DNA of 64,000 nt from assembly GCF_030704535.1 (NCBI RefSeq), contig NC_081819.1, positions 18,944,001 through 19,008,000 of the forward strand, written 5' to 3'. Position numbers and translations under genes: made by a program. Positions 46,779 to 60,412 of the stretch are shown in pieces; the first letter of the stretch is position 1, and every line of letters starts with the position of its first letter. The notes under the pieces are model-generated. The model did no database searches. It was not told the DNA's origin and worked only from the letters and a program-made list of their open reading frames with translations. Origin of the DNA: Vitis vinifera (lineage: Eukaryota; Streptophyta; Magnoliopsida; Vitales; Vitaceae).

Positions 46779-47017
46779 TATCCTTCTCCACCTTTTCTTT
46801 GCCCCCCACAGAGACCACACCGCCTCCCTGGCTCGCCTCTGTCGTGGCGACTATCTACTGGTTTCCATTTCTTTACCCAACATTCTCTTTTTTCCTCATT
46901 TGATTCCAAAGCTAAAAATTATTTTAAAATTTTAAGAAAATAAATAATTTAAAAAATAAAATAAATTCATATTTTGGTGCATAAAAATAATTATTAATGT
47001 TTTTCTAATTTGAATTT

Positions 47018-47081
47018 GGGAGAATTACCCTTAAGGGTAGGCTGGAGGAAAAAATGACCAGGGTGGGTAAATTTGATAATT
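47018..47081 (+). repeat. Left terminal inverted repeat of the MULE
   Basis: It begins GGGAGAATTACCCTTAAGGG and shares GAAAAAATGACCA and GGGTAAATTTGATAATT with the inverse of the right end. It is preceded directly by TTTGAATTT. Confidence 0.92.
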
Positions 47082-48163
47082 ATTGTAAAGGGTAAGGTAA
47101 AATTATGATAATTCCTCCAAATGCCTTATTTTGTTTAAATGTCAATACTACCCTTAATAAGTGAAAAGCAACAGAAAATAAAAAAGAGTTTATTCTCCAT
47201 TTCTTTAACCTACCTGGAGCCGAGTTGTAGAAGAAAAAGAGGAAAGGAAAAAGGTGCGCACTTCAGGTCATTCTCTGCAACCGATACACAAAACTTGTTT
47301 TTTTTTTTGTGAATCTAGCAAGAAATCCATTAAAGGTCAGTTTTTTTTTTTTTAATACAAAAAAAAACGTCAGTTTATGGAAAAATAAATAAATAATTTA
47401 AAAATCGGATTGAATGAAGGAAAAGTTAATAATTTTAACAATGTAGTTGTAAGATATTAGATCTGAAATATTGAATGAGGTTTTGAGAAAGAAATTACAT
47501 TTTTTTTTAAATGTTTTTTAAATTTATTATTTTGAATTTTTTTATATTATTTAGGTCATATTGAAGATGTGTTTTTATTTTTAATTTATTTTCTGGGTGG
47601 GTTGTTTGATATGATTATTATTGATTTCCATTGAAAAGGTTTGCATTTTAGTTTTGTTGTTAAGACTTTTTGACATGATTGAAGAAAAAATGTTCTCAGT
47701 TGTTTCATGCTTGTTTGGGACCACTTTGTTTGTGTATTTATAAACATATTTAGATTGTCATTGAAAACTGAAATCCCCTTTGTACGAGACCACTTTGTCT
47801 TTTATTATGAATTTGTTAAAGAGTTAAGATCACTATATTTTTGTTATAAATTTGTTACCTTTTTGTATAAGTATTATTTTGGTATGATGAGTCGAATGCC
47901 TAGTAATTTGAAGGTTGTGTAAAAAAACCATTATTTCAGTTATAAAGTATAAGTACAATACAAATGCAATATAGTTACAATGAAAAAATATTAACATTAT
48001 GATACATTACAATATACCAAAATGACAAAATATTGAATTATTTTTTACTGAATTGGCATTTCTAGGCTATCATGTTGTATTCCTATCATAAAGCATCCTT
48101 GCAAGCCAAAATTATAAAAAAAAACAACAACAAAAATACACTATTGTAATTTCAATACATGAA
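47082..48163. other. MULE 5' non-coding region
   Basis: AT-rich sequence between the left end and the 328-bp array. I see no credible open frame. It probably holds promoter or leader sequence of the transposase transcript; some sequence near 47940-48010 resembles a worn copy of the array unit. Confidence 0.5.
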
Positions 48164-49481
48164 GTTGTTGATGATAATCCAATGATGGATAAAAAAAAAT
48201 CTATAAAATTAAATTTTTTTATATAAAAATATAGAGGTATAATAAAAATACAGTACAATTACAATACAAATACAATAACATTACAATACATTACGATAAG
48301 GTAAAATTTTGAAAATGTCAAATTTCTTATGAAACTGGGCAATTATGGGTTCTTTGGCATCCCTAACATGTATAATATACAACAAATATTGTTATTTATT
48401 ATATAAAATATGTCTCAATTGATTATAATTTTCATTTGTTTATTTTGTATTCGTTGTAAAATTTTCATTGATTGTAATATTGTGAAATAGTTGTTGATGA
48501 TAATCCAATGATGGATAAAAAAAATCTATAAAATTAATTTTTTTATATAAAAATATAGAGGTATAATAAAAATACAGTACAATTACAATACAAATACAAT
48601 AACATTGCGATACATTACGATAAGGTAAAATTTTGAAAATGTCAAATTTCTTATGAAACTGGGCAATTATGGGTCCTTTGGCATATCCCTAACATGTATA
48701 ATATACAACAAATATTGTTATTTATTATATAAAATATGTCTCTCAATTGATTATAATTTTCATTTGTTTATTTTGTATTCGTTGTAAAATTTTCATTGAT
48801 TGTAATATTGTGAAATAGTTGTTGATGATAATCCAATGATGGATAAAAAAAAAATCTATAAAATTAATTTTTTTTATATTAAAATATAGAGGTATAATAA
48901 AAATACATTACAATTACAATACAAATACAATAACATTACGATACATTACGATAAGATAAATTTTTGAAAATGTCAAATTTCTTATGAAACTGAGCAATTA
49001 TGGGTTCTTTGGTATATCCCTAACATGTATAATATACAACAAATATTGTTATTTATTATATAAAATATGTCTCTCAATTGATTATAATTTTCATTTGTTT
49101 ATTTTGTATTCGTTGTAAAATTTTCATTGATTGTAATATTGTGAAATAGTTGTTGATGATAATCCAATGATGGATAAAAAAAAAAAATCTATAAAATTAA
49201 TTTTTTTATATAAAAATATAGAGGTATAATAAAAATACATTACAATTACAATACAAATACAATAACATTACGATACATTACGATAAGGTAAAATTTTGAA
49301 AATGTCAAATTTCTTATGAAACTAGGCAATTATGGGTTCTTTGGCATATCCCTAACATGTATAATATACAACAAATATTGTTATTTATTATATAAAATAT
49401 GTCTCTCAATTGATTATAATTTTCATTTGTTTATTTTGTATTCGTTGTAAAATTTTCATTGATTGTAATATTGTGAAATAG
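48164..49481. repeat. Tandem array, four copies of a ~328-bp unit, inside MULE
   Basis: Units start near 48164, 48491, 48819 and 49150, each beginning TTGTTGATGATAATCCAATG. They differ by a few substitutions and small A-run indels. The array ends ~46 bp before the transposase ATG. Each unit carries identical subparts such as ACCCTAACATG-like and TACGATAAGGTAAAATTTTG segments and has no open frame. Confidence 0.95.
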
Positions 49482-49527
49482 ATTGATTTGATTGTCGATG
49501 AAAGAAGACGTACTTCTGAATTGGTAA

Positions 49528-51863
49528 ATGGACTTGGAAAATTCCATTTATGGCTACCTTCATGAAGGAGGGGAGATTGTACCTAAGGAGGATAAACAAA
49601 TACAATACAAGGGTGGACAACAAAAAGGCATGTACATTGGACAAAGGATGTCATATGCTGAATTTGTTTCAAAGGCATGTGAACGGTTGGATATTAATTC
49701 AAATGGATATACATTTCATTACACCCTTGAGTTTGATCCATCTGCACTTCAACAGTTGGATGATGATGAGGACATGCATATGATGTTATCCCATAGTTAT
49801 GATTATGCTCGTATTTATGTATTAAAACGGACTCGAAGAGTAGAAGTTGAAGGAGGTATAGTCAATGTGCAAAATGATTATTGGTAAGTGATATATCTTG
49901 TATTAGTTGTCATTAATTCCATGATGCAAAGTGCTTTTAATATTAATTAACTGAGTGTGCTATAATATGCAGTCACAATAGTACGGAGGAAATACACAAT
50001 TCAGTTGCATCATGTCAAGTAAACAATGAGTCTAATTTAGGACTTTCTCAAGGCTTCATGTCCAGATGTGCAGAAACTGAAGTTATACCACATGATTTAA
50101 GTCTTTGTCCTCAACCTATTATTGGGAGTGGGCATAGTTTTCCTAATGCAGATGAATTTAGAAATGCATTATATACGATGTCATTAGTTGGTAGATTTCA
50201 ATACAAATTCAAAAAGAACTCTCCAAAGCGAATATATGTGTGTTGTTTAGTGGATGGGTGCCCTTGGAGAATAACTGCTAATTCAGTAGGCACAACCAAA
50301 ATTTTGAAGGTTAACATCTTCATTGATGTACACAATCATTGTGCAAATGTTGAGTGTTCAAGCCAACCTTCAATGCGGGGAAGGAGAGGTGCTCGTGTCA
50401 TAGAGCAAGTAATAAGGGCAACCCCTCAGTATTTGCCCCGTCAAATTTGCAAAGACTTCAGGAGTCGGTATGGTGTTTCATTGAGTTATAAGCAAGCTTG
50501 GACATACAAAGAAATGGCAAAAGAGAGAATATATGGTCTTCCAGAAAACTCATATATGTTGTTGCCATGGTTATGTCAGAGATTGGTAGACATTAATCCA
50601 GGGACGATTGCTGAATATAGCACACAAGATGGGCATTTTTGGCAATTGTTCATTGCACATTCTTTTTCAATTCAAGGGTTTTTAATGGGTTGTCGACCTG
50701 TTATTGCAATTGACTCAACTCATTTGAGTGGACCGTATAGGGGCTCTTTATTTTCTACAACAGCTTATGATGCTGATGATGGCATGTTCCCAATTGCATT
50801 TGGTGTTGTAAGTTCAGAAAACTATGAGGATTGGCTATGGTTTTTGCAGAAATTGAAGGGCATACTTCAAGATAAAGAGGTAGTCATAATATCAGATAGG
50901 CATCAAGCAATCCTTCGTAGTGTTTCTCAACTTTTTGGAGTAGAAAATCATGCATATTGTTATCGTCATGTGAAAGAAAATTTTAGTAGCTATGTGACGA
51001 AACATAGTATGAAGGGAAAAAAATGTAAAATGGATGCATTTTTGCTACTTGATAATGTTGCGTATGCTAGGTTGGATGATGATTATGTTGTAGCCATGGA
51101 AAAATTAAAGACATATAACAGTGACCTAGCGAAGTGGGTTGAAGAGAACAGTCCACAACATTGGGCAATGTCAAAGTTTGCCAAAAAACGATGGGATAAG
51201 ATGACAACTAATCTTGCTGAATCATTCAATGCTTGGCTGAAGGAGGAACGTCATTACACAATTTTCAACTTAGTAATGACACATATGGATAAGTTTGCTC
51301 ATCTAGCATGTGATCATATGGGTTCTATAGAAAATTGGAAAGCTGCAATTGGCCCAAAGACCGAGGAAAAGTTGTTGGAAAACATTATAAAGAGTGGGTC
51401 ATTGCCTGTATATCCCTATGTTGGTGGTGTGTTTAAGGTATTCAATATGAAAGTATATGTAGACGTGAATTTGAGAGAGCGTACATGTACTTGTAAGGCT
51501 TGGCAAATGGCCGGAATACCTTGTGAGCATGCATGTGCAGCAATACGCCAGATGAAACAAGATGTTTATGAATATGTTGACTCATATTTCAAGCTTCCAA
51601 TGCAAGAGTTGATATATTCTGGACACTTCAATTCAATTCCAAATCACAACATGCCTATAGTTGATGTTGATGGATGTGTTCGTGATGCTCAAGGTCGCTT
51701 ATATCCTTCACTTAAACCTCCATGCTCAAAACGACCACCTGGAAGGCCTCGACACCGTCGAATAGAGTCTCAATTTAGTTCAAAAAGGCTTATCTTCTGT
51801 TCACGATGTCAAGTTGCAGGCCATAATCGAGCTTCATGCAAAAATCCATTACCCGCTCCATGA
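49528..51863 (+). CDS. MuDR-type transposase of the MULE
   Basis: The transposase cuts and joins the element's ends. Two exons (49528-49883 and 49973-51863, intron GTAAGT...TGCAG) give an uninterrupted 748-residue protein. N-terminal PB1-like part (~1-118) with LDDDEDMHMML, then the MuDR DNA-binding region (~165-250) with CLVDGCPWRI. The DDE core follows: first Asp in VIAIDSTHLSG, second Asp in VVIISDRHQAI and Glu in TNLAESFNAWL. A SWIM zinc finger (CTCKAWQMAGIPCEHA) and a C-terminal CCHC knuckle (CSRCQVAGHNRASC) complete the family layout. All catalytic and zinc residues are present. A domesticated MUSTANG-type origin is unlikely because the gene lies between clear transposon ends with a target duplication. 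Confidence 0.94.
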
Positions 51864-52229
51864 TTCTAGTGTTATGCTTGTTTGGTGACATGCTACTTTT
51901 TATCTTATTTTGATTGTGATGATATGTGTGGTTTATGAAATTAGAATCTGTAAGAATTTGTTTTGGAACTTACTTATTTACTTGATTGTCATGACAAAGA
52001 TGTTTGTATTACATATGCCACTATTTTAGACTTATGATCTTATCATTATTTAGGGTGGTTTGTAACCATGTTTTTAATGTTATTTTGAAGATCATTATTG
52101 ACTTTGTACATGTTCATTACATTTGTTTAACTTGTTTTCCATTGAAATACAGGTTACATCATGGCATCTTCAAGTGCTTCATTAACAGGTGTGGCTCCCA
52201 ACTACATCTAAAAATTAAGAGAACCATAC

Positions 52230-54827
52230 TTCTTCACGAATCATTTGTACAGTAGGCACGCTCCTCCTTAGAATTCCACCACCCTAAATGAAAAGCATAA
52301 AAACTGACGTTAGATTAACTTGAACGGAAATATCTGATTTGTTTATGCAATAAAACACATTTACGAATACAACATTTTACCATAAACATGCAAGTCTTCT
52401 CTAATTTTTTGTTTCATATTTGTTCCTTATTAAGGTTCCATTCTTCACCAAAAAGATAAAAAATGATTAAGACAACAAACAAAGCAGATGTACATAAAGA
52501 CACGTGTGTGCATATCACTGAATGCACATACTTGAAGAATGCAACATTGCAAACACATATCAGCACAACTAGTTGCTCTCAAGAGGCTTTATGCCATTGT
52601 GTAAGATTCTGGTGCAGATATCAGCCAAGTTACACCCCTCAATAGGCTTTGAGAAAAGCCTTGTTATTTTTATTTTCATGTTCCCAGGGCAGCTTTTCCA
52701 TTTATGAATGGGGTTCCATCACATGTGATTTTTCTTCATGAGGAGCTTCTAGGCCGTCAGTTAAGAAGTGATCCTTACTTCATTCTTGCTTAAATAGTAG
52801 GCAGTCATATTTTGAGTTAGAATTTTAATATTTTTTCTCAAAGAACCTTGCCACTGACAAGAATAGGGCAACAAATTCTAATCACTAAAATTTGCACACA
52901 AAAAGGTCCTTTGGTCAAACTAAGCCTTGCCCTAGGTAGTAGATTGGTGCAACCAAAGCAAGTAACAATAAAATAAAAAGGTATGATCTCTCAGATATTT
53001 TATGTTGATAGAGAAATACCATCCAAAAATTACATGTAGCATAAAATGAAGTTGCAGAACCTACCAGACCATACTGAAAAATCCGTTTCAATGCTTCTTC
53101 CAGATGTTGTTCATCCCCATAACGATATCTTATAACATCATTCCTGACCTAGTTAAAGTAACCAAAGTAATAAAAAAATTGTTCATAAAACAATAAAGTA
53201 TATTGTTCACACATTGAAATAATTGAGGCAAAAATCAGCTACATAAGAATATGCATTTACATGTAGATAATATTGACAAGAATATTGTCCATCTCATGAG
53301 GGCAGTCAGTACACAATGGATCTATTTAAGCTGGATCATATAACAAAACATCTTATGTTCATCCTCTAGTAACTCTATATACAGATTAAAACTGCAGCAG
53401 CACATATACCATACAATAATTACTGGCAGTGGGGCTTCTCCACTTGCCATGCAGTGTTATCAGGATAATAAGGAATTTCTTAGCCCTGTATAACCTGCAA
53501 GAACTTACTCCATAGTTTCCATTAGTCAACCCAAAAAGGGTTTCACATATTACATGCCTAAACTGGAATATAATTTAAATATTAGTGATATCATAGCTAA
53601 TATAACAGGGAAGGTAATTGTAAAAGTTATTCTGAAACATTCTCTACCCCAAAATAACCTAATCATATCTCCTAGATTTTACAAGGATAAGGTGTACCAC
53701 AGTTCACTATGTTACATGACCACTCTCCTCAACAAGCAGTGGCCTAATTTGAGAGACTACAGAATCAGGGGTACTGCAAGGCCTTTCATTGTCAGTTGGT
53801 GAGGACCAAGAACCCTTTATTGCCAGTTCACCCTTTTCCTTTTTTCTTTTCATTTTTGTTATTTTAGTAACCTGTCACAGAACCTCAATATATGAAATAT
53901 TGACAAATTTGCATATTGAATAATGCTCAAAAAGGGTTTGTGAAAAAAATTGATGAGACAGGGCTTTGTTAAGCCAAGTCAAGTTGTACATATTTTATAC
54001 ATCTCCACTTTTGCCTTCTGTATTACAAAATATAATATGGTCAGCCCAACAACTGAATTTTTCATCAGTTTCCTTGAGTAGATACCATGAAACAAAGGGG
54101 TAGCATATAGAAATTATCATCATATTTATAAAAACAATACTAGCGAAGATTGCTAAATGAAAGTGCAAGGATATTCTTGATGACAAAAGAAAATAAAAAA
54201 GGGACTGATGTGCAGTTCTTAAAGAATAAAAATTTCATTCCATGCATAGAGATCCAATCCTGCTAAGATGCTATCAAATGTTCTTGGCTTGAAAGAGCAC
54301 TTAAATAGAAGGAGTTTAATACAAAAGGAATGACCCCAAAATGTTTTAAAAAGAATAGTTCTCGAGAGAAAAAAACAAAATTTTATGAGATTCTGTAATG
54401 AAAGAAAACTTACCAGGAGACTTTGTAATAAAAAGAATCTATAATAGATAAAAATTTCTTCAAACACATGAAAATTCAACCCTTTCTAGGATGATGTCAA
54501 ATTTTCTTGGGTCAAAAAAGAGGATTAGAGGATTTATGCTGAAGGAGTTCACTTACCAAAAGCAACCAACAGAATGATTACATAAATCAGTTTCATAAGA
54601 GAAGATATCTGAGATTTTATACAGTGAAAGGAGTTTTCAAGGGAAACAACCAGTTGATTTAAAAGTAAATAAATTTCATGAATGAAATTACTATCTGAGA
54701 TTTTCAATGAGAGAAAATGAGTCAATTCCAAGAACATTACCTGTCTAAGAATTGGGGTGGCACTTGTTTCTCTTAACTTTTGAGCATCTGAGTAAGTCAA
54801 GCATGGAACTAGTTTCAGTTCTGCATA
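52230..54827 (-). pseudogene. Captured antisense gene fragment with three exons in phase
   Basis: On the minus strand three exon-like pieces with good splice signals line up in phase 0: 54741-54827 (YAELKLVPCLTYSDAQKLRE...), 53065-53148 (VRNDVIRYRYGDEQHLEEAL...) and 52230-52283 (GGGILRRSVPTVQMIREE). Together they encode 75 residues with no stop, separated by introns of 1592 and 781 bp. The run starts and ends without ATG or stop, so it is a piece of a larger gene, taken up as genomic DNA by the MULE in the orientation opposite to the transposase. I do not recognise the parent protein. Confidence 0.65.
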
Positions 54828-55112
54828 CTGCAAAACAGTAAAAGGGCTATGCCATCATGCATGTGGAAAAAAAAAAAAGCATAATTTGATTTCCATCACC
54901 ATTAAACTAAAGAACTCAGTGGTGTACCACTTTTACGACAGAAGATCTAACACCAACCTGGAAAGGAAAGCCAGTGAACTACATGGAATGCAGGCCAAAT
55001 GGGAAAACAAAAAGAAGAAAAAAGTTAAGTCTCCAAATGGAGAAAATAGCTTAAACAGCATGACAGGTGGTTAGATCAACGCAACTGGTGAAAATTGAGA
55101 TTTTAAAAATAC

Positions 55113-55574
55113 AATATGTCATCTGGTTGGAATAATAAATTCAATGCAAATGAAGAAAATGCATCTCATGAGGATAATGGATCCAGTTGGAGCAAAAAAT
55201 GGGGTGGTGGTAAAGCGACTAGTGAAAGTGGGGAAAAACATAGCAAATCCAGTGATTGGAGTAATCCAAATGCTTCCAACAAGGATATGTCATCTGGTTG
55301 GAATAATAAATTCAATGCAAATGAAGAAACTGGTGGGACTGGAGATCATGATGGTGGTTGGAATAAAAGAAAAGCTCCTGGTGAACATCAAAAAACACCA
55401 TGGAAAACTAATGAGAGTAATTTGGATGGAAACCCCTCCTCTGGTTTTCAGGGCCAAGATGGTTGGGGTACTCCAAAACCTCCACAAGATAAATCCTCTA
55501 GTTGGAATCATAAATCCATTGATAATGAAAAAGATGGTGATGGTAAAGATCAAGGAGATAGCAATGCTCCCTAG
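55113..55574 (+). pseudogene. Captured WG/GW-rich coding block 1 (Argonaute-hook-like)
   Basis: A 152-codon open frame rich in Gly, Ser, Asn, Lys and Asp carries nine spaced tryptophans in contexts such as SGWNNK, SSWSKKWGG, SDWSN, GGWNK and DGWGT. This composition is that of the Argonaute-binding WG/GW platforms of KTF1/SPT5L or NRPE1. The segment MSSGWNNKFNANEE occurs twice (near 55116 and 55288), showing an internal repeat of ~173 bp. It has an ATG and a stop, but no other domain, so it is most likely one exon of a captured gene. Whether it is expressed is unknown. Confidence 0.65.
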
Positions 55575-55589
55575 AGGGAAGATAACAAA

Positions 55590-55890
55590 AGAAAGTTTGA
55601 AGCGCTGCCCCATTGTGTATTTTGTGGACTTTGTGGAAAGAGAAAAACTGAAGAGCATTTGAAAATACAAAACAATTGGTTCACTTTTTGAAGAGTTCAT
55701 TTGTGATTAATCTATTGTCTTGGGGTTAGGATGTACATAGCATAAGGAATTCTGTCCTCATTCGAGTTTGTAGATTGGCTAGGTCTAATTAAGGGAGGGA
55801 GCATTATTTTCCCTTGTTTTGGCTATGCCTTTTGCTTTGTGTATAGCCCTTTTCATTAATAAATTCTGTCTTTTGCTTACTTATCAAAAA
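55590..55890 (+). mobile_element. 5'-truncated LINE fragment inside the MULE
   Basis: Decayed coding sequence resembles the C-terminal tail of plant L1-type reverse transcriptase proteins in mixed frames (LPHCVF..., RMYIA, FEFVDWLG), followed by a short 3' UTR and the ending CTTATCAAAAA, typical of plant LINE 3' ends. Stops and frameshifts show that it is dead. It starts almost directly after WG block 1 and separates it from block 2. No clear target duplication was found. Confidence 0.5.
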
Positions 55891-56249
55891 GCCAAAATAA
55901 GCAAAATCAGATTCAACATGAACCATCTACTCAGAAGCTACAATCTATGACACTACAACAACCATAAAACAAGAAATATTTACAGATTACAATATAAACT
56001 AACTTTGTCATCGATATTATATAACATGTATAGCCTCAATTTCCAGACATCTTCCATACAGTCCAGAGAAAATCAAGAAGAAATTTACAGCTAGCTTTGG
56101 AAATTCTGGACCAATATTTTCCTGCTAATACAAGAGTATAATTTAGCATAATCACAGTCAAAATAACATTTGCATGCTCAATGATGCACCATACAAGAAG
56201 CATATAAAACATCTCCATACATGTTTTAACCAGACCAGAAGCATGAAGA

Positions 56250-56930
56250 ATAGGAAGAAATTAAGAGCCAATATTTCCAATTCCAACATGAATATGATGA
56301 TAAATAAATACCCACATTCCTCTGAGCTAAATTCACAGGCATGAGAGTATCCATCCATTGCAGCACTATCGAAACAATACATCAAAAAACAAACGTTTGA
56401 ATATAGCTCACCTGCATAGGAAAAAACTGGTCTGATTTGAAGAGCTAAGATTCCAAATTCAAAGCTATTATGACAATTAATTAACGCCCACATTCCTTTA
56501 GGCCATTAAAATCGAAACCCTAGAATTCCTTGCATGTTATGATGTTAACCAAGAAATGCATCATACGACAAACACACATCAATATTTCACTGTATTTTTT
56601 CACACACACGTAAAGAAGCCAAGCCAAAAACCAGACCTAATCTTTCAAATTTTAGCATGATTATGACTATTAATCAACACCCACGTTTTATCATTACAAC
56701 AAAGCCACAACTCGATAAATTATTTCAAAAAAAATGCACTATAAACACACATGAATCTGACATTTGAATGCATTTTCCCCTAAAAAAAACCAAGCAAAAA
56801 TTGACAGCCAGCATTTGAAATTCAACTTATTAGGCTAATTAATCAATGCCCGTATAAAGAAATTATGTAAATAGAACAAACAAGGATATATTAAGAATTA
56901 GCAAGGATGCATCATACGACAAACAGTCAA
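56250..56930. repeat. Diverged tandem repeats of ~170-195 bp inside the MULE
   Basis: A motif like TTCCAAATTCAAAGCTATTA followed by AATTAATCAACxCCCAC recurs near 56270, 56446, 56642 and 56810. A second motif GATGCATCATACGACAAACA recurs near 56557 and 56906. The copies are well diverged, so the array is old. It is unlike the 328-bp array. Confidence 0.55.
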
Positions 56931-57190
56931 TAGCTGGTGCCCAAGCTGAGGCCTGGGATAAACAAGGATCAGGTTGGAATAGAGGAACAAGTACAGGAAG
57001 TGGAAGCATGACAAGAGATGGGGCTGAAACTTGGAATCAATCGAAGGCCCCTGATGGAGCTCAATCATCTGCTTGGAATCAAACAAAAAATTCAAAAGAA
57101 GGAACTAACAATTTTAAGGAAGCGACTGATTCATGGGGTAAAGCTGCAGCAAATTCTTGGGGCAAAAAACGTGATCTCACACAAAAACCC
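56930..57190 (+). pseudogene. Captured WG/GW-rich coding block 2
   Basis: An open stretch with AEAWDKQGSGWNRG, AETWNQSK, SSAWNQTK, DSWGKAAANSWGKK carries six tryptophans spaced by 6-20 residues. The SWGK units are those of KTF1/SPT5L-type proteins. A possible splice acceptor (ACAAACAG) precedes it. Composition and strand match block 1, so both probably come from the same captured gene, split by an intron, a LINE and repeats. After ~57180 the frame runs into sequence without the pattern. Confidence 0.6.
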
Positions 57191-57562
57191 AAATACCCGA
57201 TACCCACATTCTTTGTAATCTCAAACAAAATCAGTAGCCTAGAAATCTTTTCTCAAAAATGAACTCAAACAAAAAAACACCCAAACAACTCCTCTAACAG
57301 AGCCTTGAAACTCAATATTCTAAGACGCCAATTTCTTTTCTTTCCTTACCTTTTTCCCACCACCCAAGCAAAGCACAAAACCACTCTCAGCCAAAGAAAA
57401 GCCTTGCAATCGCCCACCGTTTGGTTCCTGAGAAAACGAAAAGCAAAACAAAAGAAAAACAGACCCAAACCCCAAGTTTATTTCTTTTTTTCCCAAATTT
57501 TCTCAGCAACCAAACAGACCCAAACCCAAAACACTTAGGGCAAAGCATGAAATAAGCAGAAT

Positions 57563-57900
57563 TTGGAAGGCTTTGTGAGGCCTTTACCTTGGACTAGTGG
57601 GGCTTTTGTGCAGATCCAGCCTCTGGAAGGTTCTTCACCTCAGGCAGCGGCCTTCGAGACCAATCCGGATTTTCTGTTTGGGTTGGATAAAGGGCTCGCT
57701 CCGCCTCCCCCTGTGAAATTGCAGGATCCAACGCCTCCACCCACGGTTCCAGATGTGCTTCCCAAGGATTATTCAGTGTGATCGGATCCAGGATCGGAGG
57801 ATCGCCATGTTGTTGGAGATCCAGTGGTGTCCCCTGCGGACTTCCAGAGGCAGATCCAAATGGAACAATCGTATGGTTACAATGGCTGGTTCAATGGTCA
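57563..57900 (+). pseudogene. Captured coding-like fragment next to the right MULE end
   Basis: A GC-richer open frame encodes PLPWTSGAFVQIQPLEGSSP and continues through NPDFLFGLDKGLAPPPPVKL to a stop at 57781. A related-looking frame (MEQSYGYNGWFNG) follows. The base composition differs sharply from the flanking transposon sequence, as expected for acquired host DNA. The preceding ~300 bp look like a UTR. I do not recognise the source. Confidence 0.45.
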
Positions 57901-57945
57901 AATTGAGGGTAAATTAGTCTAATAAAAATATAAGGTCTTCAAAAG

Positions 57946-58012
57946 AATTATCAAATTTACCCATTCTCATTGGTCATTTTTTCCACATCCTACCCTTATG
58001 GGTAATTCTCCC
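57946..58012 (-). repeat. Right terminal inverted repeat of the MULE
   Basis: Read on the minus strand from 58012 it begins GGGAGAATTACCCATAAGGG and follows the left repeat for ~65 bp with small indels. It is followed directly by TTTGAATTT (58013-58021). Confidence 0.92.
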
Positions 58013-58348
58013 TTTGAATTTTGAACTACATCCAAGTAATAAATATTTTGAAAGTAAATCCTATATACTACTTTAAAGATGCGACAAATGAAATGACAGC
58101 TTCCATAAATAATTATCAATTTTTTTAATATGTTAATAAAATCGTAAAAATATCTAAGGTACATCGGACAGCAGGATTCGATCCAAATGGGTAAATTCAA
58201 AATCACAGAAGTTGCTTTGAATGACTTGGGGGTGTTTGGGCAATGAGAATAATTGGGAACATTTTCTCACTTGCAGGAAAACAGCAGAAAAGTGTAACGT
58301 AAGCACTCTAGGAAAGAACCAACAAGAACATTGTTTGTGTGATGTCTG

Positions 58349-60412
58349 ATGATCAAACCCTCTTCGAAATGTACGAAACTCATCTCCGTGGATTTTCTCA
58401 AGACCCACTGCACATCAATCTCCAAAACCAAGCAAGCCCACGCACTCCTCCTCCGAACCCACCTCTTGCACAACCCCCTCTTCTCAAGCAAGCTCATCTC
58501 TTTCCTGGCCCTTTCCCATTCTGGCGACCTCAACTATGCCCGAAAACTCTTCACCCAGATGCAAAACCCGGACCCATTCATCTGTAACACCATGATCAGG
58601 GGCTACGCAAGAAGCCAAAATCCCTATGAAGCCGTGTCTTTGTACTATTTCATGGTTGAGCGCGGCGTTCCTGTGGACAATTACACATACCCATTTGTTT
58701 TGGCGGCCTGTGCTCGCTTGGGGGCTGTGAAATTGGGTCGGAGGTTTCACTGTGAGGTTTTGAAAAATGGGTTCGGGTCAGATTTGTTTGTTATCAATGC
58801 ATTGATTCAGTTTTACCATAACTGTGGGTCCTTTGGGTGTGCTTGCGACGTGTTTGATGAAAGTACTGTCAGAGATGTGGTGACTTGGAATATAATGATA
58901 AATGCGCATCTTAATAAAGGGCTGTCTGAAAAAGCTTTTGATTTGTTAGACGAAATGACGAAATTGGATAATTTAAGGCCGGATGAGGTGACAATGGTCA
59001 GCTTGGTTCCGGCTTGTGCACAATTGGGGAACTTGGAAAGAGGAAAATTTCTTCATTCTTACTCAAAAGAGCTTGGTTTAGACGAGAATCTTAGGGTAAA
59101 CAATGCAATTTTGGATATGTATTGTAAATGTGATGACATAGAATCAGCACAAGAGGTTTTTAATAGGATACGGGAGAAAGATGTTTTGTCCTGGACCAGC
59201 ATGTTGTCAGGGTTGGCCAAGTCAGGTTATTTCCAAGAGGCACTAGCTTTGTTCCAGAAGATGCAGCTGAATAAGATTGAGCTAGATGAAATCACACTTG
59301 TGGGCGTGCTTTCTGCCTGTGCTCAGACAGGAGCACTGGACCAAGGCAAGTATATCCATCTCTTAATAGATAAATTTGAAATAAATTGTGACCTTGTGCT
59401 TGAAACCGCTCTTGTTGATATGTATGCTAAGTGTGGATCCATAGATTTGGCTCTACAAGTCTTTAGGAGGATGAGAGTGAGGAATGTTTTCACATGGAAT
59501 GCACTGATAGGAGGGTTGGCAATGCATGGTCATGGCGAAGATGCAATATCCTTATTCGATCAGATGGAACACGACAAACTAATGCCAGATGATGTTACAT
59601 TCATCGCTCTATTATGTGCTTGCAGCCATGCAGGATTGGTTGATGAGGGTCTTGCCATGTTTCAGGCCATGAAGAATAAGTTTCAGATTGAGCCAAGGAT
59701 GGAACACTATGGATGTGTGGTGGACTTGCTTTGCCGAGCCAGGAAGGTGGATGATGCATTGGCCTTCATTGAGAATATGCCCATCAAAGCTAACTCTGTC
59801 TTGTGGGCTACTCTTCTTGGAGCTTGTAGGAGTGGCGGCCATTTTGATCTTGCAGAGAAGATCGGTAGAAGGGTGATTGAGTTGGAGCCTGATTCTTGCG
59901 GGCGCTATGTGATGCTGTCGAATCTCTATGCAGGTGTCAGCCAGTGGGATCACGCCTTAAAATTAAGGAAGCAGATGAAAAACAAAGGAATCGAGAAAAC
60001 CCCAGGTTGTAGTTGGATAGAGTTGAATGGCATGATTCACCAGTTTGTAGCAGGTGATAGATCACACCTTCAAACAGAACAGATTTATGCTATGATTGAA
60101 GAGATGACCCGAAGGGTCAACTTGGATGGAGGCCATGTACCGGGCACTGCAAATGTCTTGTTCGATATAGAGGAGGAAGAGAAAGAGCATTCTCTGTTCC
60201 TCCATAGTGAAAAACTGGCCATTGCCTTGGGGTTGATCAGCACTCCAAGCGGTTCACCAATTCGAATCGTTAAGAACCTCCGTGTCTGTAATGACTGTCA
60301 TTCTTTTCTGAAGGTGACTTCCAAGGTTTATAATCGAGAGATAGTTGCAAGGGATCGGAGCCGATTTCACCATTTTAAAGAGGGTTCTTGCTCCTGCATG
60401 GACTTCTGGTAA
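58349..60412 (+). CDS. Pentatricopeptide repeat protein, PLS class with E/E+ and DYW domains
   Basis: These proteins bind organellar RNA, and most edit C to U through the DYW deaminase. The gene is intronless with 687 residues. About a dozen P, L and S repeats run from ~35 to ~520 (for example DPFICNTMIRGYARSQNPYE, DVVTWNIMINAHL, DVLSWTSMLSGLAKSGY, NVFTWNALIGGLAMHGHGED). They are followed by E and E+ motifs (~490-590; WATLLGACRSGG, KTPGCSWIEL) and a DYW domain (~590-687) with the deaminase HSEKLA (His and Glu), CNDCHSF and HHFKEGSCSCMDFW. The last three residues are DFW rather than DYW, a mild variant. The N-terminus is short and its targeting is uncertain. The ATG lies 337 bp from the MULE end. 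Confidence 0.95.
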   Translation: MIKPSSKCTKLISVDFLKTHCTSISKTKQAHALLLRTHLLHNPLFSSKLISFLALSHSGDLNYARKLFTQMQNPDPFICNTMIRGYARSQNPYEAVSLYYFMVERGVPVDNYTYPFVLAACARLGAVKLGRRFHCEVLKNGFGSDLFVINALIQFYHNCGSFGCACDVFDESTVRDVVTWNIMINAHLNKGLSEKAFDLLDEMTKLDNLRPDEVTMVSLVPACAQLGNLERGKFLHSYSKELGLDENLRVNNAILDMYCKCDDIESAQEVFNRIREKDVLSWTSMLSGLAKSGYFQEALALFQKMQLNKIELDEITLVGVLSACAQTGALDQGKYIHLLIDKFEINCDLVLETALVDMYAKCGSIDLALQVFRRMRVRNVFTWNALIGGLAMHGHGEDAISLFDQMEHDKLMPDDVTFIALLCACSHAGLVDEGLAMFQAMKNKFQIEPRMEHYGCVVDLLCRARKVDDALAFIENMPIKANSVLWATLLGACRSGGHFDLAEKIGRRVIELEPDSCGRYVMLSNLYAGVSQWDHALKLRKQMKNKGIEKTPGCSWIELNGMIHQFVAGDRSHLQTEQIYAMIEEMTRRVNLDGGHVPGTANVLFDIEEEEKEHSLFLHSEKLAIALGLISTPSGSPIRIVKNLRVCNDCHSFLKVTSKVYNREIVARDRSRFHHFKEGSCSCMDFW

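Follow-up and report, generated by a model that had tools for sequence, protein, structure and literature searches.

A Mutator-like element (MULE) of Vitis vinifera carries copies of host DNA, among them pieces of the tryptophan-rich Argonaute-hook frame of what is taken to be the host's own KTF1/RDM3/SPT5L gene. Pieces of the same frame lie in at least 15 carriers across the genome, this element included (repeat counts here are minimum counts). The element was found in a 64,000-nucleotide stretch of DNA (the window, C15:18944001-19008000), and the genome searched comprised 495.6 Mb in 21 contigs. How did parts of a gene of RNA-directed DNA methylation (RdDM) come to sit inside a transposon, and do they do anything there? 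Our preferred reading, to which we give a probability of about 0.85, is serial transduplication by an element of the Pack-MULE kind, probably through ectopic gap repair, in which the fragments would be passengers with no function as peptides.

The element is 10,995 bp long (47018-58012) and lies wholly inside the window (Table 1). Its terminal inverted repeats (TIRs; 47018-47090 against 57937-58012) are 86-89% complementary, and a search of the window with the terminal 24-mer, at up to three mismatches, returned two sites, which are the two ends of the element, with none in 100 shuffles. The transposase frame matches PF10551 (MULE, E 1.2e-17), PF03108 (DBD_Tnp_Mut, E 4.7e-13) and PF04434 (SWIM, E 8.4e-9). 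Is this a Pack-MULE, the kind of element that Jiang et al. (2004) reportedly dealt with? TIRs, a 9-bp target site duplication (TSD) and MURA-like transposase domains make it a MuDR-type MULE. Like a Pack-MULE it holds host-gene fragments with identifiable parents (KTF1 on C13 and a DUF2854 gene on C14), but Pack-MULEs carry no transposase and this element has transposase domains. Local alignment gives the order as 5' region and transposase, DUF2854 piece in reverse, block A, C4 piece, block C and 3' region. The native 3' region also occurs in relatives on C9, C8, C2 and at C3:9.4M, where no KTF1 match was found. A DYW-type PPR frame follows the MULE (within 58013-60412), with its first ATG about 0.34 kb downstream of the element's right end.

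Table 1. Parts of the MULE and its flanks, in window coordinates
Feature	Position	Strand	Remark
Left 9-bp TSD, TTTGAATTT	47009-47017		identical to 58013-58021
Left terminal inverted repeat	about 47018-47091	+	ends are ~75 bp
Native 5' region, 331-bp unit x4 (97%)	48163-49481		also in small KTF1-carrying relatives
MuDR-type transposase, 638-aa stop-to-stop frame (DBD_Tnp_Mut, MULE, SWIM)	49947-51863	+	Pfam
Captured DUF2854 (PF11016) gene fragment, apparently with introns	52181-55114	-	98-99% identical to C14:21876677-21879726
47-bp KTF1 piece, donor-frame bases 1545-1591	55115-55161	+	upstream of block A, 8 bp overlap
ATG-started 152-aa open frame covering block A, 9 W	55116-55574	+	open-reading-frame list
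KTF1 block A (= block 1), donor-frame bases 1413-1815	55154-55559	+	97.5% identical to donor
Captured 1340-bp segment	55561-56900		98.9% identical to C4:99008-100347
Junction filler	56901-56920		overlaps 19-bp string 56907-56925
KTF1 block C (= block 2), donor-frame bases 2746-2990	56921-57165	+	95.9-96.3% DNA identity to donor
Native 3' region of the MULE family	57164-57900		local alignment
Right terminus with inverted repeat	57901-58012	-	arm 57937-58012
Right 9-bp TSD, TTTGAATTT	58013-58021		perfect copy of left TSD

The first-pass annotation had pointed to two tryptophan blocks in WG, GW and SWGK contexts within a MULE, and its counts hold: the frame at 55107-55571 (block 1) has nine tryptophans with four GW and two WG, and that at 56930-57178 (block 2) has six, with one GW and two WG, both of the latter in SWGK. 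Both blocks are real, within an element bounded by TIRs and TSDs, but their limits had to be redrawn, as KTF1 sequence begins at 55115, its main piece is block A, and what had been counted to block 2 past 57165 is the 3' region of the MULE family. Neither block has a Pfam match, and a solved-structure search with block 1 gave one match (E 2), taken as chance. Tryptophan-rich sequence arisen by chance is ruled out by the 96-98% identity of both blocks to one host frame, and this identity, inside a TIR- and TSD-bounded element, also bears out the proposed capture by a transposon.

Where do the blocks come from? Searched against the genome, block 1 gave four matches, two of them on C18, one in a 1007-aa open frame on C13 and one in the window itself. 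Of the 25 matches obtained with block 2 and its tail, four cover the block itself (the window, the C13 frame again, C3 and C18); the remaining 21 are confined to the final 35 residues or fewer, which belong to the MULE's own 3' region. The two blocks thus map to two stretches of a single frame of 3024 bases with 62 tryptophans, 21 GW and 18 WG, and the WG-rich parent that the first-pass annotation had asked for exists. This frame has no Pfam match and its best solved-structure match has E 0.14. About 7-8 kb upstream on the same strand, frames match KOW1_SPT5 (E 3.7e-9) and KOW4_SPT5 (E 3.3e-13), and the solved structure that they match best is 'RNA-directed DNA methylation 3' (8hyj_W, E 1.7e-33 and 3.7e-17). 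Because of these upstream KOW frames we take the donor to be the host orthologue of KTF1/RDM3/SPT5L, and the blocks to derive from its AGO-hook frame. This agrees with the donor guessed beforehand, the captured part being WG/GW-rich. The WG/GW frame is probably a single exon; since a single unbroken frame supplied both blocks, comparing introns kept or removed is uninformative. A search with the donor region L006:4400-9300, in which 40 of 485 candidates were scored, found no further captured part of KTF1; what it matched was the donor, a stretch of about 0.45 kb at 74-91% (a dispersed repeat) and one match of 38 bp.

KTF1 is not the only source of the interior. Parts of the DUF2854 stretch (52181-55114) also match C9:6012844, C3:11388887, C13:28453787 and C7:20922630. 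In the source region of the C4 segment, the one flanking frame tested has no Pfam match. The junctions carry marks of their own. A 47-bp KTF1 piece stands out of order before block A, which would fit a backward template switch; the 19-bp string 56907-56925 is a second copy of 56556-56574, 351 bp upstream; and CAAT microhomology is found at the right junction of the third captured KTF1 stretch (block B, below). Together, these three features are signs of template switching. Gap repair is a model for the formation of Pack-MULEs, and the junction marks fit that model. Pack-MULEs also show a GC-related choice of the sequence that they capture; the GC content of the KTF1 frame (0.468, with 0.363 for the window) agrees with this, that of block A reaching only 0.397. 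At another locus (L043, C9:6014001-6018783), protein-kinase-like fragments at 413-1088 lie between stretches matching the MULE on C9 and are perhaps another capture; the same locus has, at 2235-2681 on the minus strand, a copia gag-like frame whose score is below its cut-off. The unrelated pieces captured by the family argue for indiscriminate capture.

How widely have the KTF1 pieces travelled? The whole 3024-base donor frame gave 22 matches in the genome, with all 18 candidates scored. They comprise the donor itself, three loci with block A, block C or both (the window, C18:30.28M and C3) and another 12 loci with block B. The C18 sister (L007/L008/L042, C18:30279241-30296188) is an element of 16.9 kb with near-matching 9-bp flanks, TTTTAATAT and TTTTAACAT. 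It carries blocks A and C, has a stop inside the transposase, and its block A holds a 57-bp in-frame duplication through which a 213-aa stop-to-stop frame stays in phase. The TAG that ends the 152-aa frame of the window is TGG in this copy. The C3 carrier has block C only, slightly longer and joined to pieces also present at C7 and C11, and its right terminus is present.

Block B corresponds to donor-frame bases 2228-2502, or part of them, and is the third captured stretch of the 1007-aa frame. All 12 block-B loci have the MULE 5' region and right terminus (L049 with a variant terminus). Block B stops some 0.1 kb short of the right terminus, and in all 12 its sense strand reads outwards. The seven elements measured are 2.6-3.0 kb long. 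Three of the 12 loci were compared directly with the window and gave no match to the transposase at 49947-51863. Identical 9-bp flanks bound six of the seven elements whose left ends were fetched, although in two of the six (L051 and L045) the flanks are near-single-base runs and so weak as TSDs; in L054, the left end of which was also fetched, the flanks do not match, and those of L048 do not match over 9 bp by eye. Of the 518 bases upstream of the block-B frame, 1-258 recur in many loci and 286-518 are also found at C3:3555174 (91%).

Were the three KTF1 pieces taken up together or one by one? All three blocks trace back to a single 1.6-kb stretch of the donor frame and have the same orientation, and A and C stand in donor order. 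The changes from the donor that the copies have in common are of like size in each (5 of 403 positions and a 3-bp insertion in A, 3 of 229 in B and 6 of 244 in C). The simplest account would be one ancestral capture followed by differing losses. Several captures form the less simple alternative, for which the lack of any element with the whole KTF1 stretch among the carriers found leaves room. Serial transduplication, our preferred reading, could then have run as follows. A MuDR-type MULE would on repeated occasions have exchanged its interior for copied host DNA, through ectopic template switching during the repair of breaks inside the element. A longer KTF1 stretch may have been captured once in an ancestor, or in a few events close in time, and then eroded differently in each lineage. 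The form with the third KTF1 stretch beside the right TIR would have become a small non-autonomous Pack-MULE and reached 12 sites.

What has happened to the copies since? About 879 bp of 11 block-B copies were compared, with the majority base as a stand-in for the ancestor. There are 50 C-to-T or G-to-A changes, or 0.158 per GC site, compared with 13 transitions in the opposite direction, or 0.023 per AT site. By context, 16 of 42 CHG sites are changed and 33 of 263 CHH sites (Fisher p 1.4e-4), with 1 of 10 for CG. Methylation at CHG is typical of silenced plant transposons, and from this CHG-biased decay we infer that the block-B copies were probably silenced in the past, for much of their life.

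Could the silencing of the MULE spill over to the donor? Transcripts across the KTF1 pieces, either antisense from the right TIR or made by Pol IV, would yield 21-24-nt siRNAs matching KTF1, so that silencing of the MULE would damp KTF1. The raw material is there: 24-mers of the KTF1 frame that recur in the sequences of the 15 carriers (taken as loci with flanks for 14 of the 15) cover 818 of its 3024 bases, and 21-mers cover 837, while the neighbouring PPR gene, used as a control, has no 21-mer in common with the carriers. With the KTF1 sense strand directed towards the right terminus at every block-B locus, a transcript running inwards from that TIR would be antisense to KTF1, and the decay just described suggests methylated copies. 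Promoter activity of TIRs is known from maize MuDR, and its assumption here would be by analogy with that element; moreover, the 1007-aa donor frame is open and so shows no lasting damage. On balance we regard such cross-talk as unlikely. There is a parallel in maize, where captured sequences are described as siRNA reservoirs able to silence donor genes (PMC13317346). PMC10991848 cites redundancy between the AGO hooks of NRPE1 and SPT5L, which would soften any such effect. A further step would hold the silencer hostage: siRNAs against the 15-element family would also target KTF1, tying the strength of RdDM to the silencing of the family in a feedback loop. This is an improbable extension.

Is there instead a peptide at work? 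The first-pass annotation had suggested one that titrates Argonaute, and in its fuller form the idea is that block A, or a block-B peptide of 97-110 aa, would bind AGO4-class Argonautes and let the MULE escape RdDM. The tryptophans would be numerous enough, with nine in block A, six in block C and five in the block-B consensus, since two or three suffice for one AGO (Sheu-Gruttadauria and MacRae 2018, cited in PMC10991848). The block-B frame starts with ATG and is open in nine of the 12 copies; both transposase-type elements keep block A open, over the 152 and 213 aa already given. However, the copies are young and open frames are for that reason weak evidence, and the block-B frame is cut short in the other three copies (L050, L052 and L056). 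In 11 of the 12 copies, L056 having been dropped, 33 distinct changes were counted: 22 nonsynonymous, 9 synonymous and 2 to stop (0.667, 0.273 and 0.061). The frame's own mutation spectrum predicts 0.659, 0.258 and 0.083, so the counts fit neutrality and a peptide under clear selection is rejected. If the 450 bp upstream supply the spectrum instead, the expectation is 0.772 nonsynonymous, 0.163 synonymous and 0.065 stop; nine synonymous changes against about five expected lean in the direction of constraint but are too few to decide. Both stop changes turn a tryptophan codon into a stop. Private changes in blocks A and C (C15, C18 and C3) amount to seven nonsynonymous and four synonymous. Selective constraint on the captured frames thus gives no clear sign in the substitutions. 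The copies also bear the mark of methylation rather than of escape, and the family holds unrelated captured pieces as well. A functional Argonaute decoy is not supported; we hold it to be very improbable and infer that the captured fragments lack a peptide function.

That the WG-rich sequence is an ordinary KTF1 pseudogene, never moved by a transposon, has next to no standing: high identity to KTF1 is all that speaks for it, and it is contradicted by pieces that lie in TIR elements, many with TSDs, at 15 dispersed sites, joined to DUF2854, C4, C7 and C11 segments.

It is common for MULEs to capture genes. The donor in this case belongs to the transposon-silencing pathway, and the captured region is its Argonaute-binding part. 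The family offers a natural test of whether siRNAs derived from such captures act back on a donor gene whose own loss would weaken that silencing. Among the open-access papers searched we found no description of KTF1 as a donor captured by a MULE. Pack-MULEs, as described in the text of PMC4858842, are MULEs with host gene fragments, some of them from at least two parents per element. The small block-B elements, with their TIRs and mostly 9-bp TSDs, resemble the Pack-MULEs of rice and other plants, whereas the window element departs from them in its open transposase frame, and the case as a whole in its RdDM donor and in the presence of one fragment at 12 loci. For grapevine itself, Benjak et al. 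(2008, PMC2528002) described MULEs that have 9-nt TSDs and hold both introns and exons of captured genes, as they show for a putative cellulose synthase gene. The present elements share with these the 9-bp TSDs and captured gene fragments; 'SPT5' and 'KOW' do not occur in the main text of that paper. VANC of the VANDAL MULEs directs hypomethylation of related elements, according to PMC13317346. As there, a MULE family carries sequence bearing on its own silencing, but unlike VANC the KTF1 pieces are short and look neutral. Finally, gene capture can lead to epigenetic conflict in maize (Muyle et al. 2021, as told in PMC13317346). The grapevine family resembles that conflict in that silenced elements and a live gene have donor sequence in common, and differs from it in that its donor is a gene of the silencing machinery itself.
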